Origin: a virus
Direction: 5' to 3' (one strand)
DNA length: 23,520 nucleotides
IMG/VR virus record: IMGVR_UViG_3300037963_001117
Coordinates: 1 to 23,520 of that record
A model generated the notes under the pieces. The model did no database searches and was not told where the DNA came from. It saw nothing but the letters and a program-made list of their open reading frames with translations. A program made the position numbers and the translations under genes. Positions 6,642 to 17,500 of the stretch are shown here, piece by piece; the first letter of the stretch is position 1, and every line of letters begins with the position of its first letter.

Positions 6642-6670
6642 ATCATACATCAATTCAGCAGCAATGGCAA
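6642..6670 (-). promoter_or_regulatory. Sigma70-type promoter, TTGCCA-17-TATGAT
   Basis: The -35 box TTGCCA (5/6) is separated by exactly 17 nt from the -10 box TATGAT (5/6). It overlaps the end of gp5, whose stop codon lies in the spacer. Predicted initiation is near 6635, about 17 nt before the ATG at 6618. It would give early, host-polymerase expression of the small-gene and tRNA cluster. Confidence 0.55.
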
Positions 6671-9394
6671 GCCATAAACCTGATGAGGTCCAAGACCGCA
6701 ACCAGTTGCCATGTAACCAGTGCCGACGCCTGTGTGGATCAGACCAGTAGCAACCTGATTCAGCAGGGCACCAGTGGGCACAAACTCAGCAATCACACCA
6801 GTAGGTGTTGCGATGAATGTGGAGTGGACACCTGCGCTAGATCCCATGATGATATCATTCATAGACCCAGGCATCGATGTACCCAGACAGATTCTAGTCT
6901 GTGTGGGAGGTGCAAGACCAGGAATAGGAAGGTCTGTAGTGATATCAACGATAGCACCATTAACAAAGGTGAATTGACCAGACAGTGCCTTCATTGGATT
7001 GAAGATTGCAACCATCTCAAATCTACCACTGTTAAGGAAAGAAGAGATCCAGTTTGCTTCATTAGTGATCTCACCAGAAGCGATGTTTTCAATAGTGTTT
7101 GCCTCAGTCTTAATAGTCTGAGAGTTAAATGCTAGTGAGTTGATTGCAGTGATCTTAACCTTTGCACCCTGAATACTAACGTCACCAGTATATGCAATGT
7201 CATGGTCACCCTCTTTACGAGATCCAGACTTCTGCTCTTTGTCATCTTTCAGGTTACCCTTAAGTTGACTACCCCAAGGAACTCTACCGTGCTCGTCTGC
7301 TTCAGGATGATATGGAATCTCATCAACAGGATAGAAATGACCACCAGGCAATGCCTTAAAGTATTGGTCACGCTCAGTCTGTTTGATGTGGACCATGTTG
7401 ATCATGTCCTGCTTCTTATCGTCTTTCTTTCTAGTAGAAGACTTATCAGCACCACCAACATCAATAGATGAAGTCACATCTGTGCCCACTTTAGAAATCT
7501 TAGTTTTCTTATTGTCAGTCCTATTAACAACTTTCTGACTCTGCTTGTCTAGATCACTCTTAGCATCTACCTTATCAGGTTTCTTAGATGATCCCTCAGA
7601 CTCTGCCTGAGGACCCTGAGAAGCATTATCATTCTTAGCACCTGTCACTTCCTCGTGATAGTTACCCATGACCTTCAGATAGAAGTCACCCTCAACAGTC
7701 AGCACATAGTTACCTTTAATGGTCTCACACTTGTCTCTAGCAATGATCTTAGTTTCATTGTTAGGGACATTCTTATGCTCGTTACCATGACCATCTTGGA
7801 ATGTGCAGACACCACCAGGACCCTGTTTGATTTGTTTCTCAACACCAGGGGTTGCATCATTGATATCCTTAGCACCATTGAGGTGAGTAACAACCTCCAT
7901 GAGGTCTGTATTGATAGCAGTAAACATCTTATCGATGTAACTACCACCGCCACCTGCTCCAGTGACACCATCATCAAAACTAGAGAATGGTGTGCCAACG
8001 ATTGCTTCATTGATACTGCCGCCGCATTCCGTGGTCCCGATCAACGGATACCACGCCTTCGACTTCGGTCGTTTTATCTCCCTCCCGCAATCCTTCTGGA
8101 AGAACATCTTGATGATAGCGAAGATGATTTTAATCAAACCCGCCCAGTTGAGTTGAGTGAAGTCAAACTCAAAGATCATCTTTACAGTCTCACCGATGCT
8201 TCTTGCTGCACCAGCGATACCTTTTGCCATATCAACAGCAGCGATCACGTCGCCAGCAATATCCTTAACACGATTCATTGTGCTAGTGATACCACTAAGG
8301 ATACGGTTAGTAACACCCTTAACAGCAGAGTCAACACCCTTAAGTTTATCAGCAATCTTATCTACAATCTGCGTCGCTATATTATTAGCGAACGCAGAGA
8401 CATCCGATATTGCGGCTTGCACTAGCCCCAACCACATCGGTGTCTTCATACAGAAGATACTAAAGATCATCTCAAGGAACTGCAAGATTGTGGTAATCAC
8501 AACCAAAGGCACGAAACTAGAGATAATTGCAACAATCTTACCAACAATCTCAGCAATGAGTTTAGCAAGCATTTCCTTCAGTGGTGCCAGAATACCAGCA
8601 ATACCACCAGCAAGGAAATTCATGATCTTACCCATGTGCTCCATCACCTTATCACCTGCAATCTTCTTACCAGTTGCAAGAGAGATGAATCCACTAGGAC
8701 CACTAGCAAGAGTCGCTGCCATGTTGCCCAACTCAGTGAGCATACGCTCTAGATCAGTGCCGAAACCTTCGCCAGCAGGACCAGCAACGCCATCACTAAT
8801 TGCCTGCTTCTCGACAGGAGGTTTAGTTGGGTTAGTTACAGCATTACCAGGCAGAGTTTCTTCAGCAGCAGAGATAGCACCACGAGATTCTTCGTTACCA
8901 GATCCAGTAGGATTCGTAGGTGTAGTATTCTGACGCTTAACCATAGGACTGCCGTCCATGCGGTCATTACCAGCAAGGTCTTTCTGACCAGGAGTTTGAG
9001 TCTTCAGTTTATCTGCGACTGTGCCATCTGCCGCAGTTGTCCTCTTCTCAGGATCTTCTTTTACTTGGAAACCACGGAATGCACCCATGACGACAGGCAT
9101 CTGTGCCTCATCACCATCAAGAAAGAATCCCATGACCCAAGATCCAGGCTGCAACTCAGTAGTTGTACCTGTATTCTTTGTCTGTGCCTTATCGCATGGC
9201 AGCAATACTGTTGCCCATGGCAGCACCTCAGTAGGCAACTCCTTAGTATATGCCTGCTTTGCCTTGTGACCTGTATACCAACCAAGGATCCGCACCTGGA
9301 CACGACCCAGTTTGGAGGGGTCTTCGTTGCTCTCAACTTCCCCGATCCACCAAGTGTATCCGTCTCTACCTAAGTAGTCTGTCCGATCCAACAT
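6650..9394 (-). CDS. gp5: Baseplate hub protein gp5, without lysozyme domain (914 aa)
   Basis: The N-terminus (about residues 1-130) is a gp5-type OB fold: YTWWIGEVES, SKLGRVQVRILGW, LPWATVLLP, PGSWVMGFFLDGDEAQMPVVMGAFRG. A Gly/Pro/Thr-rich linker follows. Residues about 250-435 form a very hydrophobic, helix-rich region. From about 530 there is a VgrG-like beta-helix stretch (TIKGNYVLTVEGDFYLKVMGNY, about 558-580) that would form the membrane-piercing spike. T4 gp5 is 575 residues with a lysozyme after the OB fold; here no E-D-T lysozyme motif is present, and a GH24 domain is found instead in the protein at 14600-18211. A late promoter lies in the 21-bp gap upstream. In the virion it would trimerise at the tail tip. 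Confidence 0.85.
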   Translation of the reverse strand: MLDRTDYLGRDGYTWWIGEVESNEDPSKLGRVQVRILGWYTGHKAKQAYTKELPTEVLPWATVLLPCDKAQTKNTGTTTELQPGSWVMGFFLDGDEAQMPVVMGAFRGFQVKEDPEKRTTAADGTVADKLKTQTPGQKDLAGNDRMDGSPMVKRQNTTPTNPTGSGNEESRGAISAAEETLPGNAVTNPTKPPVEKQAISDGVAGPAGEGFGTDLERMLTELGNMAATLASGPSGFISLATGKKIAGDKVMEHMGKIMNFLAGGIAGILAPLKEMLAKLIAEIVGKIVAIISSFVPLVVITTILQFLEMIFSIFCMKTPMWLGLVQAAISDVSAFANNIATQIVDKIADKLKGVDSAVKGVTNRILSGITSTMNRVKDIAGDVIAAVDMAKGIAGAARSIGETVKMIFEFDFTQLNWAGLIKIIFAIIKMFFQKDCGREIKRPKSKAWYPLIGTTECGGSINEAIVGTPFSSFDDGVTGAGGGGSYIDKMFTAINTDLMEVVTHLNGAKDINDATPGVEKQIKQGPGGVCTFQDGHGNEHKNVPNNETKIIARDKCETIKGNYVLTVEGDFYLKVMGNYHEEVTGAKNDNASQGPQAESEGSSKKPDKVDAKSDLDKQSQKVVNRTDNKKTKISKVGTDVTSSIDVGGADKSSTRKKDDKKQDMINMVHIKQTERDQYFKALPGGHFYPVDEIPYHPEADEHGRVPWGSQLKGNLKDDKEQKSGSRKEGDHDIAYTGDVSIQGAKVKITAINSLAFNSQTIKTEANTIENIASGEITNEANWISSFLNSGRFEMVAIFNPMKALSGQFTFVNGAIVDITTDLPIPGLAPPTQTRICLGTSMPGSMNDIIMGSSAGVHSTFIATPTGVIAEFVPTGALLNQVATGLIHTGVGTGYMATGCGLGPHQVYGLPLLLN

Positions 9395-9415: not shown

Positions 9416-9877
9416 TTATTTATCGAGCAAGGTGAAGAGAAACTCACCCTCTTCTTCAGGTTTACCCCACGCTTGCTTATCTGTTTCAGTATCCCAACCT
9501 TGATCCATGGATCTATAATCCAGTCCGTCGAATCTGATACGAGATTTAATTAGATACTTACCGACTTGACACCAATCAGCGGGGATCCCCGTCCACCATC
9601 TACCGTCCCAAGTCCATACAAAAGGACAACTATCCTCTTGTTTAAGAATATTGAAAATATCTGTCTTTACAGTGGTTTCAGTAGATTCTGTGATCCTATA
9701 CCTTAACCAGTTGTAAGCATTCTTTTCGCCCTGATACTTATACCAGGATTTGGACTCAAATACACCTGACTGTGTTTGCCAAATCCTGATATCTATCTGT
9801 GGCCATTGAGCAGGGTTAGACATTGCCTGCATTTTATTACGATAATGCCCATATAAGAGCTCTTCAAAGTTATTCAT
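9416..9877 (-). CDS. cpeT: CpeT/CpcT-type phycobiliprotein lyase (153 aa)
   Basis: The protein follows the CpeT pattern. An N-terminal LLYGHYRNKMQAMSNPAQWP corresponds to the 'G-x-[YF]-x-N-x-x-Q-A-x-x-xP' opening, followed by a beta-rich middle (ESKSWYKYQ, NWLRYRI). The hallmark C-terminal part has two Cys flanking WDGRWWTG, then SMDQGWDTET, Q-A-WG and EFLF. CpeT/CpcT proteins attach phycoerythrobilin or phycocyanobilin to phycobiliproteins; phage versions are known auxiliary metabolic genes of cyanomyoviruses. The length fits phage CpeT, shorter than the roughly 200-residue host form. AAGGG precedes the ATG at 9877. A perfect sigma70 promoter directly upstream suggests early expression. It sits between gp5 and CP12 within the hub region. 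Confidence 0.8.
   Translation of the reverse strand: MNNFEELLYGHYRNKMQAMSNPAQWPQIDIRIWQTQSGVFESKSWYKYQGEKNAYNWLRYRITESTETTVKTDIFNILKQEDSCPFVWTWDGRWWTGIPADWCQVGKYLIKSRIRFDGLDYRSMDQGWDTETDKQAWGKPEEEGEFLFTLLDK
9417..9424 (-). promoter_or_regulatory. Late promoter GATAAATA before gp5
   Basis: GATAAATA lies about 23 nt before the gp5 start, overlapping the end of cpeT. A TATAAT at 9402-9407 with TTGCTC 17 nt upstream (9425-9430) overlaps it, so a weak sigma70 promoter could coexist. The late motif is the more likely functional element for a virion gene. Confidence 0.65.
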
Positions 9878-9895
9878 CTCAACCCTTACATGGTT

Positions 9896-9924
9896 ATTAT
9901 AATAATTTATTGTAGGTTTGTCAA
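9896..9924 (-). promoter_or_regulatory. Perfect sigma70 consensus promoter before cpeT
   Basis: TTGACA (9919-9924) and TATAAT (9896-9901) are both 6/6 matches to consensus and are separated by exactly 17 nt. The -35 box includes the CP12 stop codon. Initiation is expected near 9889, giving a leader of about 12 nt with AAGGG before the ATG of cpeT. Such a match by chance in one intergenic gap is very unlikely. Confidence 0.85.
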
Positions 9925-10148
9925 TCCTCGTAGACTAGACACTCGGGCTCTGATGGGTTTTGATCACAGTAGAGCTCAAGATATGTAGGATCGTGATGGT
10001 CGCCTGCTTCGATCTCCTTCTTATGGTGATCTGCATACTCTTCTAGGTCATGCAATTCGCCTTCGATGTGACGACGCATTTGGGGATTTGTGTTAGGATT
10101 ATCAAGAATTTCCTTATCCTTCTTGATGTGTGCTTCGATGTTTTCCAT
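9921..10148 (-). CDS. cp12: CP12, Calvin-cycle inhibitor protein (75 aa)
   Basis: The C-terminus ELYCDQNPSEPECLVYED is the signature of CP12: a Cys pair (C61, C70) in YCD-x-NP-x4-EC, ending in VYED. The N-terminal half is helical and charged (ELHDLEEYADHHKKEIE), corresponding to the CP12 core helix region; the N-terminal Cys pair of plant CP12 is absent, as in many bacterial and phage forms. CP12 binds GAPDH and PRK under oxidising conditions and shuts down the Calvin cycle. Phage CP12 is proposed to divert carbon and reductant to the pentose phosphate route. It lies 6 nt downstream of the gp27-like gene and probably shares its transcript. Confidence 0.88.
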   Translation of the reverse strand: MENIEAHIKKDKEILDNPNTNPQMRRHIEGELHDLEEYADHHKKEIEAGDHHDPTYLELYCDQNPSEPECLVYED

Positions 10149-10154
10149 TGTAGT

Positions 10155-11537
10155 TTATTTTTTAGGGATGGAATCGCGGAATAAAGTCAATTCAGATGTA
10201 CAACCTCGCTGGGTGAAAGTAAAAGTATGAGCAGCAATAAGGTATTTACCACTAAACTTTCTATCTTTCATGACACTATCTTGCTGACTGCGTGAAGCAG
10301 GAATATTGAGTTTGATAACGTCACCAGCACAGATTCCAGTATTACCTGGGACTGTGATTGTTAGTTGAATTGCCTTCATTAAATTATATCTAGCAGCAGC
10401 ATATTCTGCAACTGCTAGTGTGTCAGCGGTTTCAGACCCGCTGTCAGGATTTCCTTTTGGTTGACCAGACTTACCCTGCTGATGAATCAACGTAGGAATT
10501 GGTCTGATTTTTTGTCGAGTAGGTGGTGCCCCTTCTCCCGATACCTCTTCAGGCATATTGAATGGGGGTGACTCGTGAAGGGGAGTTGCTCTGGCAAAAA
10601 TTTTATCAAACGCTGTTTCTCTTGCAGCGTAAATTGTCCCTGACGGTGATGATTTACTCTTGTTACTACCACCATTTGCGGTGACATTGTTAGCACCGAC
10701 GTTGGCAAGACTCACACCACTGGTTACAGTTTTATATGTCCCCATCCTCATATGTCTGAGGTGATTTGCTTTGTCTGGATATTGAATAGACTCAATGTTT
10801 AGGTAACCTTCGTCTTCTGTATGTCCCTGCTGTGCATATACAAATTGGAATCCAGATTCTTGCTCACAAAGACCATCAATAGATCTAAACTGAAATCCTC
10901 GTTGATTCTCATAGAAGAGAAAACCAGATTGTTTTTGTGATCCCTTACCCGATGGTTTTGAATTCTTACCAGATGACTTTCTAGTTACCTTGTCAGAAAT
11001 ATACGAGATGAGGTCAACAGGTCTCCAGTTTGGTGATACAACTTGGACCTTTGAGTGTGCCTCAAAGTTTTCTTCCTTGATACGTTTGCCAGGTGCTTTG
11101 AGATACTTCTTGACGATATGCTTAGGGAGGTTTTCTTCATCCTTAGACGCTCCCTCAGCGATTGCACCAAATGCTTTGAAGACCTTATTGATCTCGTTGT
11201 TATACATCTCAGGTGTGCAGCAATAGATGATATACAACTGACCACGCTCAGACTTGATGATCTTACCAATCTTGTAAACTCTAAAATCTAGTTTTAATTT
11301 ACCCTTGCCGTCTGCTGCCTCAGTGACTACATCTATTTGCACCTTCTCACCACCTGTGAGATTCAGGTTGAAGTCAACAGAGTCAACCATTGATAATTCT
11401 AGACGACAGAAGGGTGCCTCAATAGACTCATAGTACTTAAAGTCTGGCACCATCTTCTTAAGATCAAACTCCTTATCACTATTGGTAGTGAGAGTAATCT
11501 TATTAAGCTTAAATTGTCTTGATTTCTGCTCTGCCAT
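10155..11537 (-). CDS. Baseplate hub protein, gp27-like (460 aa)
   Basis: Near the C-terminus it has the gp27/gpD-type hub pattern: AIQLTITVPGNTGICAGD, VIKLNIPA, KFSGKYLIAAHTFTF and a final strand SELTLFRDS. The N-terminal half (YYESIEAPFCRLELSMVDS, TGGEKVQIDV) resembles the hub beta domain that forms the base of the tail tube. It is longer than T4 gp27 (391 aa) because of a Gly/Ser/Lys-rich insert around residues 185-200 and a flexible Pro-rich stretch at about 330-370. The start overlaps the previous stop (TAATG). The position next to gp5, its T4 partner, supports the call; sequence identity to T4 gp27 is not evident by eye. Confidence 0.65.
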   Translation of the reverse strand: MAEQKSRQFKLNKITLTTNSDKEFDLKKMVPDFKYYESIEAPFCRLELSMVDSVDFNLNLTGGEKVQIDVVTEAADGKGKLKLDFRVYKIGKIIKSERGQLYIIYCCTPEMYNNEINKVFKAFGAIAEGASKDEENLPKHIVKKYLKAPGKRIKEENFEAHSKVQVVSPNWRPVDLISYISDKVTRKSSGKNSKPSGKGSQKQSGFLFYENQRGFQFRSIDGLCEQESGFQFVYAQQGHTEDEGYLNIESIQYPDKANHLRHMRMGTYKTVTSGVSLANVGANNVTANGGSNKSKSSPSGTIYAARETAFDKIFARATPLHESPPFNMPEEVSGEGAPPTRQKIRPIPTLIHQQGKSGQPKGNPDSGSETADTLAVAEYAAARYNLMKAIQLTITVPGNTGICAGDVIKLNIPASRSQQDSVMKDRKFSGKYLIAAHTFTFTQRGCTSELTLFRDSIPKK

Positions 11538-14599: not shown

Positions 14600-17500
14600 T
14601 TACTGAGTGAGAAGAGGCGAAGGTTTGGTATACACAGCTCTAGTGCTACCTGATGTATTTATCTGCTGTGTGACACGTTGTATCACTACACGCTCCTGCA
14701 CGACAGGGTATACCTCTGCAAGACCGTCACGCTCTGACTTCTCCTTGATCGCTTGCAATTTCTTCATTGAATCTTCCTTGACCCTACCAACTGCCATAAT
14801 GTTTGAAGGATCAGTAGTTACTCTCTCTGGTTTTAAGTCTTCGAGAGATTCGCCAGTAGCATTACTCTTAGGGGTAGATGTATCAATACCTGTATCTGGT
14901 CCTAGTTTACTTAATGCCTCAGCAAGACCTGTCTTGAATGCTTCCAGCATCTCTGCAACAGTCTTGGGTTTAGTATCCGCAGCCTGCTCAGTATCACCAC
15001 CACCGTCACCTGTGGTATTTACATTACCTTCAGATGTTGTGGTATCTACATCAGATCCATCACCAATTTTCTTAGATGGTTTGATAGATCTAGGTGCTCT
15101 CCACATCCAGACATCACCATCAGGCAACTGATTCTGGAAGAGATTCTTGTCCATGAAGTAATACTTACCAGGACCACCTGTCTTATCACCAGCACTGTTA
15201 GTCTTCTTCCAAGTGCCACCGAAGTTTAGTTGTCCAAATGGATCATGTACAACGAATCCATTGTTTTTGTATCCAACAACCATACCCCAGTGTCCAGATC
15301 CTTTATATTTGAATCCGACTGGGACAGGATACCCTGCTTGCACCTCTTTACGAAGTGATTCCCAACTCTGACCAGTTTCTAATACAGAATCAATACCAAA
15401 GTCTGCAAGTGCTCTCTTCTGAGGATATGCCTCAGTTGAGATACCATATCCACTACGGACCTTGTTGTAGTCCTCAGCAGTCATGGGTTTACCTGTGAGT
15501 TGTGCTACCCACATTGCCATCGTGGTTGAATAGCACTGAGTATCACCAGGACGACCATACTTGTCTGCCTTGTTTGCTCTCTGGTTGATGTAAGGCACAT
15601 CTTGAATGACCTTACCACCCTCAGCAGCAAACTGAATACCAGCACGCTTACTGCTGCCAGATTCCATCACACCTGCTTCGTCATTACGACGCCAGCTATT
15701 GATACCACCGTTATGCTTAGCTAGCTTATTACGGTATGCAGCAATAACTGGACCGTAATCACCACTCTTCAGTGCCTGTTGCACAGTGCCTCTAATGCCA
15801 GCACCATCTAAAGATCCATAGTTAAAGACTACAGACTCAAGAGCAGCTTTTACTCTATTAGGTGCCTTGTTATAGTCACCACCAACCTCATCAACGAGGC
15901 GTTGACGGTGCTCAATAATATGCTTAGATTTGATCCAATATGCTTCCTCTTCGGTGATCGTGTCACCTTTCTTGACTTTACCCGACTTACGGAATCCAGA
16001 TGGATAATAAGTTGCACCAATACCAATGGTAGGAATTTCCCATCCATAGTTAGCATCGGCATATGCCTCTGTCCTCAGTCCTTCATAGTTGCCTAGAAGT
16101 GCTGCAAACTTCTCATCAAATCCACCAGGAATGTTTTTAACTGGAGTAGTGCCACCAGGACCATTATTGGTGCTTGCTGAAGACCCTGTTACTCCCTGAG
16201 ATCTTTGCTTCTCTATTTGTGCTGCTTGAGCAGGATCAAAGATCTTGATGCCATTGATGAGGAGTTTATTCAACCCATCATGAATAGCACCATAGATATT
16301 CTTTTTATAAGTGAGTTGCTTTGAATTCTCAACCTTCTTCTTCTCAGTCTGTGTTGCTTGGAAGGTGACAGCTGTACTTACACCACCTGCTGCAGCTCCA
16401 CCGCCTGTCCCAACACTGACACCAAATGCAGCGCCAAGTTTTCCAATATCAGGTGCTAAGACAGTTTTTACCTTGTTGCCAACAAATCCAAATGCACCAA
16501 GACTACCTACGATTGCCTTCAGGTAGAGACCACCTGTAGCAGCGAGCATATCTGGATGACTACCAAATTGCAGGGGACCACCTGCTGCCATCTCTACAGG
16601 TCCACCTGCTGCCTTCTTATTCTCTCCGTCGAAGTCAAACAGGTTGAATGTCAACGCATCAGCAATACCACCTGCCACAGAGGCAGGATTCATGAGACGT
16701 TTAGCGTTGTTAACAACAAACTGGACTACACCACCAATAGCATCAAATACAGCACCAAGGATGAAACCAGTAAAGTCCATCAAGACCTTGGCACCATCCA
16801 TCAGGAATTTGCCAAGTTTACCGATCAACTCAAAGATCATGCCCATGGGCTCTTTGACCTGATCGATGATCGGACCTAACGTCATCTTAACGAGGTCGAA
16901 GACCATACCAAAGTATCTCTTGATAGGTCCGAAGATAGGCTCCATGAGTGGACCTAACTCTTTACCTACCCATTCACCCAGGAAACTACCAATAGCATTA
17001 CCAACGATAGGTGCAAAGGGTCCCAGGAAGGGTCCTAGCAGTGCTGTGCCTGCAATACCACCAAGGACACCACCCGCTGCCTGACCCACACCAGCACCGA
17101 TTGCAGAGGATGCCTTCTCGCCAGTAGCGAGACCTCCTGCAATCCTAGAGGCACCACCAAGGAGACCCATCCCGACGTTTACCTTACCGCCGAGTTTACC
17201 AAATACTTTATTTGCTTTGGTGCCGAGTTTACCCTTAAATCCTTTATACTTGTCGCCCATGCCGCGACGCATCTTGGAGAATCGACTCTCTTTGCCGAAT
17301 CTCTCCTCAAATGCCTTCTTAGCACCAGGACGCTTGCGGTCTGCCTTTTCGGCAGCCTTCCGCATTTGTTGTACTTCTTCTTTGGAGTATATAACTCCAG
17401 TCTTTGGATCTCTAAATCCGCTCTTTCTTACTTGTGCGTTTCTTTCTGCTTCAGCAGATGCCTCAGCATTCCCTGAGAAAATCATTCTCAGACGATTAAC

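Follow-up and report, generated by a model that had tools for sequence, protein, structure and literature searches.

In a 23,520-nt stretch of viral DNA (IMG/VR record IMGVR_UViG_3300037963_001117, referred to as the window), originating from a 35.8-kb cyanophage fragment, the cpeT gene was found to be preceded by a sigma70 promoter identical to the consensus, with a 15-bp imperfect dyad, AACCATGTAAGGGTT, located directly 3' of the -10 box. The dyad was conserved together with the promoter in related phages and recurred at several other loci. The explanation we consider rather probable is that cpeT has an early promoter of the host sigma70 type, equipped with a phage-specific putative operator for a shared regulator, and that CP12 would be expressed by late read-through. 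The phage-specific promoter-operator family that appears to link cpeT, gp55 and a few other loci is a more interesting result than the promoter itself. The dyad was missed in an earlier reading made from the sequence alone (the sequence-only reading), whose interval, 9896-10148, began at the -10 box and left out the most conserved part of the region, 9881-9895. The features of the region are collected in Table 1.

Table 1. Positions of genes and putative regulatory elements around the cpeT promoter in the window.
Feature	Position	Strand	Remarks
gp5-like baseplate hub / tail lysozyme	6650-9394	-	Pfam PF06714, phrog_694
Late-type box GATAAATA, core	9417-9423	-	over the cpeT stop codon, 23 nt ahead of gp5
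cpeT, CpeT/CpcT-family phycobiliprotein lyase-like, 153 aa	9416-9877	-	Pfam PF06206 (E 1.5e-9), phrog_488
Quasi-dyad AACCATGTAAGGGTT (AACC-ATGTAAG-GGTT), 15 bp, putative operator	9881-9895	-	centre 9888, about +2; conserved in relatives and at other loci
Likely Shine-Dalgarno sequence of cpeT, UAAGG	9884-9888	-	direct reading of the window
Predicted transcription start	9889	-	7 nt past the -10 box, 12-nt leader; inferred from promoter geometry
-10 box TATAAT	9896-9901	-	6/6; TATAAT or TAGAAT in relatives
-35 box TTGACA	9919-9924	-	6/6; on the CP12 stop codon (9921-9923)
CP12, Calvin-cycle inhibitor homologue, 75 aa	9921-10148	-	Pfam PF02672 (E 7e-12), phrog_627
Upstream tail protein (gp27-like position), presumed late	10155-11537	-	phrog_350

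The perfect hexamers reported in the sequence-only reading were confirmed directly before cpeT, with a 17-nt spacer and a score of 12/12 for the whole site (9924-9896, minus strand), as was the overlap of the -35 box with the CP12 stop codon. The spacer length falls within the 16-18 nt taken for sigma70 promoters and the ATG of cpeT lies 19 nt past the -10 box. CP12 and cpeT are separated by 43 nt, where the promoter is placed and oriented toward cpeT; a chance expectation of about 1e-5 was calculated for this gap from the base composition. It was the sole exact match in the window, and shuffled sequences contained on average 0.06 such sites, with at least one in 6 of 100 shuffles. Consensus-like sigma70 sites overall were hardly commoner in the window than in the shuffles (43 versus 36.5, sd 5.8). 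Since such weaker sites were about equally common in both, a scan of a single sequence could not separate chance from function. The 35.8-kb contig possesses a second 12/12 sigma70 promoter outside the window (30374-30403, minus strand), with an 18-nt spacer and without the dyad.

The conservation of the promoter was analysed in 77 distinct CP12 loci, collected through protein similarity to CP12 or cpeT or taken from annotated phages, with the promoter playing no part in their choice. A promoter of 11-12/12 accompanied by the dyad was present in all 21 loci with a CP12-cpeT gap of 25-100 nt, whereas the module was found in none of the 36 loci where cpeT does not follow CP12. The spacers of 13 distinct gap-type loci had a mean identity of 41%, with a minimum of 18%. 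Among the relatives of cpeT (80-100% identical, one at 43%), the two hexamers were intact, as was their distance of 17 nt, and the spacer was altered; even the gene only 43% identical to that of the window retained both boxes and the dyad. In S-SM1, S-SSM5 and their relatives, in which CP12 and cpeT overlap or are separated by an intervening gene, the same promoter and dyad were located before CP12. The contrast between 21/21 and 0/36 loci, despite spacer divergence to 18%, indicates that strong selection maintains the promoter boxes and that they are tied to cpeT; the check proposed earlier, conservation of the two boxes in other phages with cpeT at this place, thus gave a clear outcome. A consensus match arisen by chance and without function, which the near-equal numbers of consensus-like sites in the window and in the shuffles might favour, is extremely improbable, as it is already contradicted by this comparison: the boxes, the spacing and the dyad are kept across diverged relatives in strict link to cpeT.

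The dyad has the imperfect form AACC-N7-GGTT and was kept with the promoter in S-CAM22, S-RIM2, S-RIM12, Syn19 and metagenomic phages. Of the 7 pairs, the 4 outer ones are fixed in the AACC allele, and 3 outer and 2 inner ones in the AACAC allele, with pair 4 failing in the latter, several positions in both counts being set by the search pattern. Only part of the near-consensus promoters of a genome carried the dyad; in the four genomes counted it was about 3 of 9-13. When 84,980 species genomes of bacteria and archaea were scanned twice for near-consensus forms of the promoter-dyad module, no copy was found, and a host origin was rejected on this basis. The dyad is phage-specific and suggests that a promoter of host type is controlled by the phage; the 'host-type control' proposed from the sequence alone is in this respect incomplete. 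The Shine-Dalgarno sequence was rejected as the cause of the conservation of the element because its distance to the start codon is too variable; its position is not kept in relatives and the equivalent in S-RIM2 and S-RIM12 lies much farther from the start codon. A long pattern, AATNAACCATGTNAGNGGTT, was also discarded as uninformative and mis-registered. In S-PM2, a possible third allele of the dyad, AACTCTGTC, with one extra base, was noticed at two sites (84,429-84,451, minus strand, and 162,760-162,782, plus strand).

A search for AATAACC-N7-8-GGTT in 17 reference phages revealed about 2-3 sites per positive genome, nearly all at the same three places, and a mismatch-tolerant search gave dyad sites in 15 of 18 records in comparison with few for the reversed control. 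In the IMG/VR scan, the promoter with the first dyad allele was detected in at least 119 stretches, 117 of those listed belonging to three contexts: divergent from gp55 and antisense to GC139 and uvsW (at least 79), at CP12/cpeT (at least 21) and before small phrog_718 or neighbouring genes (at least 17). To at least two stretches no context was assigned. The second allele, AACACTGTNNGGGTT, was detected in at least 120 stretches, with 101 of those listed in the same three contexts (at least 69 at gp55, 10 at CP12/cpeT and 22 at phrog_718) and at least 19 elsewhere, including a fourth context, on the antisense strand at the end of a structural gene (phrog_358). The promoter and dyad in antisense orientation at the 3' end of this structural gene were seen in L391:1176 (plus strand), L395, L526 and L529.

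The dyad thus occurs as two alleles. Each of the 14 genomes that have at least two sites used a single allele throughout, a concordance that 200,000 label shuffles never reached. Sites following one trans-acting protein are expected to behave in this way, which would be hard to fit to a passive promoter feature. Shared ancestry accounts for part of the concordance. About three allele changes were needed on the gp55 tree, their number being uncertain because of the weak support of this tree. Two phages whose cpeT is distantly related to that of the window had one extra base between the -10 box and the dyad at both of their sites. The location of the dyad at several unlinked genes, one of the sites facing the late-sigma gene gp55, suggests a shared regulator controlling them together.

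At the gp55-facing site, a promoter directed toward gp55 (at least 10/12) was positioned head-to-head with the antisense dyad promoter and overlapped it in 87 of 97 distinct sites. Because two polymerases could hardly occupy both promoters, control of the antisense promoter could, judging from this anatomy, extend to gp55. Such pairs, with interleaved -35 boxes, were noted in loci L150, L166, L176 and others as well as in Syn9 (123,688-123,710, minus strand), and most of the T4-like cyanophages examined had the head-to-head arrangement. A transcript starting from the antisense promoter would enter GC139 and uvsW.

As to the timing of expression, cyanophage late promoters are characterized by NATAAATA located about 10 nt before the start. 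The spacer of the window's cpeT promoter contained no exact ATAAATA, and the gp5 gene downstream of cpeT possesses its own GATAAATA late box at the cpeT end. Due to this separate late box of gp5, cpeT may be an early unit within the otherwise late hub cluster. The names CP12 and cpeT, given before any database search, were upheld by Pfam, and CP12 does lie 6 nt behind the gp27-like gene. It also lacks a promoter comparable to that of cpeT, as had been stated: no sigma70-like site above 7/12 was found in the 130 nt upstream of CP12 in the window, nor a late box, and the nearest upstream ATAAATA was located about 4.5 kb away (14656-14662). On these grounds, CP12 in the window's lineage is probably transcribed by late read-through. 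An ATAAATA late box was present about 26-34 nt before CP12 in 36 of the 77 CP12 loci, and in five relatives the dyad promoter preceded CP12 and would drive CP12 and cpeT jointly, so the timing of CP12 probably differs between phages. No terminator was found between CP12 and cpeT in the window, and cpeT may therefore also be read late. The different timing of the two metabolic genes suggested earlier is supported in part: it is in agreement with the cpeT promoter being tied to cpeT and devoid of a conserved late box, and with CP12 here having neither promoter nor late box; against it stand the five relatives with a shared promoter before CP12, the 36 CP12 late boxes and the missing terminator. 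Published data refer to the cp12 gene of P-HM2, placed at another locus beside talC, which is a highly expressed middle gene (PMC5082946). The consulted papers in which cpeT is mentioned contained nothing usable on its timing.

The proposed mechanism assumes that the unmodified host RNA polymerase with a sigma70-type factor would bind TTGACA-N17-TATAAT of the T4-like cyanophage. Transcription would start at about 9889 and give a cpeT mRNA with a short leader early in infection, inside an otherwise late cluster. The 15-bp quasi-dyad at about +2 would serve as the operator of a dimeric sequence-specific regulator, probably phage-encoded and, since the dyad covers the predicted start site, probably a repressor. 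This regulator may act jointly on cpeT/CP12, the small phrog_718 genes, the gp55-facing promoter antisense to GC139-uvsW and the antisense promoter in the structural gene, and CP12 of the window phage would be made mainly via read-through of the late tail operon. The sequence, its conservation, the sharing of the dyad and its allele concordance inside genomes were observed; within this explanation we infer the start site, the early timing, the identity and sign of the regulator and the CP12 read-through. Several of the dyad sites are antisense, and a simple early-gene reading leaves these unexplained. A further-reaching idea, which we regard as tentative, is an undescribed lytic circuit: one phage regulator acting on the +1 dyads would silence early cpeT (or CP12-cpeT) and the antisense promoter overlapping that of gp55, thereby freeing the late sigma factor and uvsW and coupling the metabolic shut-off to the early-late switch.

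The role of the dyad could be understood differently, as an activator site or as a discriminator contacting the polymerase that makes the promoters strong or late-resistant. Its fixed place beside the -10 box, almost always at an equal distance, and its presence on only part of the genome's near-consensus promoters would suit this view; but the dyad would span about -6 to +9, a location typical of repressor sites, most near-consensus promoters of the same genomes do without it, and a discriminator is not expected to switch its allele in concert genome-wide, all of which makes the view rather doubtful. It is decidedly unlikely that the element acts as RNA, i.e., as a hairpin in the 5' leader or as an element affecting translation or stability, rather than as a DNA operator. 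The leader and early cpeT codons of the window (9892-9846, minus strand) can indeed fold into a 13-bp hairpin around the start codon (z -2.97), and this hairpin, shared by L016, L099, L100 and L205, is restricted to the window's closest relatives. It is lost in L081, L101, L103, S-RIM2 and S-CAM22, all of which keep the element, and was rejected as the cause of its conservation. Moreover, most of the left arm AACC is ahead of the predicted start, the element is not at a constant distance from the start codon, and transcription from other dyad sites would be antisense.

According to another interpretation, cpeT has a middle-type dual promoter, with a gp55 late promoter (AATAAATT in the spacer) overlapping the sigma70 one, and is expressed throughout infection, as proposed for psbA of S-PM2. 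The resemblance of AATAAATT to NATAAATA and the overlapping early and late promoters described for cyanomyoviruses (PMC2984593) and for S-PM2 psbA (PMC5931967) speak for it. However, an exact ATAAATA is missing from the window's spacer, the relatives L099-L103, S-CAM22 and S-RIM2 have lost or changed the AT run with the hexamers kept, and late read-through from upstream is possible without such a box. The late box in the cpeT spacer was consequently dismissed as not conserved, and the dual promoter is considered unlikely.

Some boxes of other regulatory systems were sought around the promoter. The T4 middle promoters carry the MotA box TGCTTTA near -30, and no TGCTT was found on the minus strand of 9896-9930; motA itself is missing from cyanomyoviruses (PMC2984593). 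Neither the NtcA consensus GTA-N8-TAC nor the Pho consensus CTTA-N7-CTTA (PMC3037559) was present within 9875-9930. The regulation of the cpeT promoter by NtcA, Pho or MotA was rejected due to the absence of these boxes.

Phages and other mobile elements have early promoters controlled by a repressor, whose operator overlaps the start site. The cpeT promoter is similar to them in having a quasi-dyad over the predicted +1, present at several promoters as genome-specific alleles, but its relatives are lytic phages, some of the dyad sites are antisense and the operator role is putative. The T4 late promoters (TATAAATA, or NATAAATA in cyanophages) are represented at gp5 and before CP12 in many relatives, whereas no conserved form was seen at the cpeT promoter. 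The closest counterparts also include T4-like cyanophage early promoters: early genes of S-PM2 and Syn9 have sigma70-like motifs, likewise TTGACA/TATAAT, read by the host polymerase since homologues of alt, modA, modB, motA and asi are missing from cyanomyoviruses (PMC2984593). Unlike these, the cpeT promoter precedes a metabolic gene within the late baseplate-hub cluster and has the quasi-dyad at the predicted +1. The psbA region of S-PM2 and other cyanomyoviruses is likewise an example of a lytic-cyanophage photosynthesis gene with its own sigma70 motif (PMC5931967), but psbA has a gp55 site and long upstream regions, whereas cpeT follows a short gap, lacks a conserved gp55 site and possesses the dyad as a putative operator. 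No description of the promoter-operator family was found in the literature consulted, which did not include the papers on the Syn9 transcriptome and on the genomes of Syn9 and S-PM2, so that an earlier description is possible.

These results bear on the timing of gene expression in marine T4-like phages, which do without the T4 MotA, AsiA and ADP-ribosylation factors. The putative operator, a conserved site that links an auxiliary metabolic gene to the gene of the late sigma factor, can be mutated to test a control circuit, and its function would show that the phage, not the host alone, decides the time of cpeT expression.

The only regulator candidate examined was phrog_718, the small protein encoded after dyad site C. 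Its structure model had no PDB match with E <= 0.001, and its role as an autoregulated repressor was rejected: the modelled beta-beta-alpha-alpha-beta fold is not HTH-like and no residue tracks the operator allele.

Additional CpeT-like stretches were detected by tblastn. In S-WAM1, the stretch L010:2001-2489 (41% identity) is annotated as 'hypothetical protein' and has a second promoter, TTGACA-N18-TATAAT, just ahead. The other stretch, in S-H38 (43,850-44,236), is unannotated.
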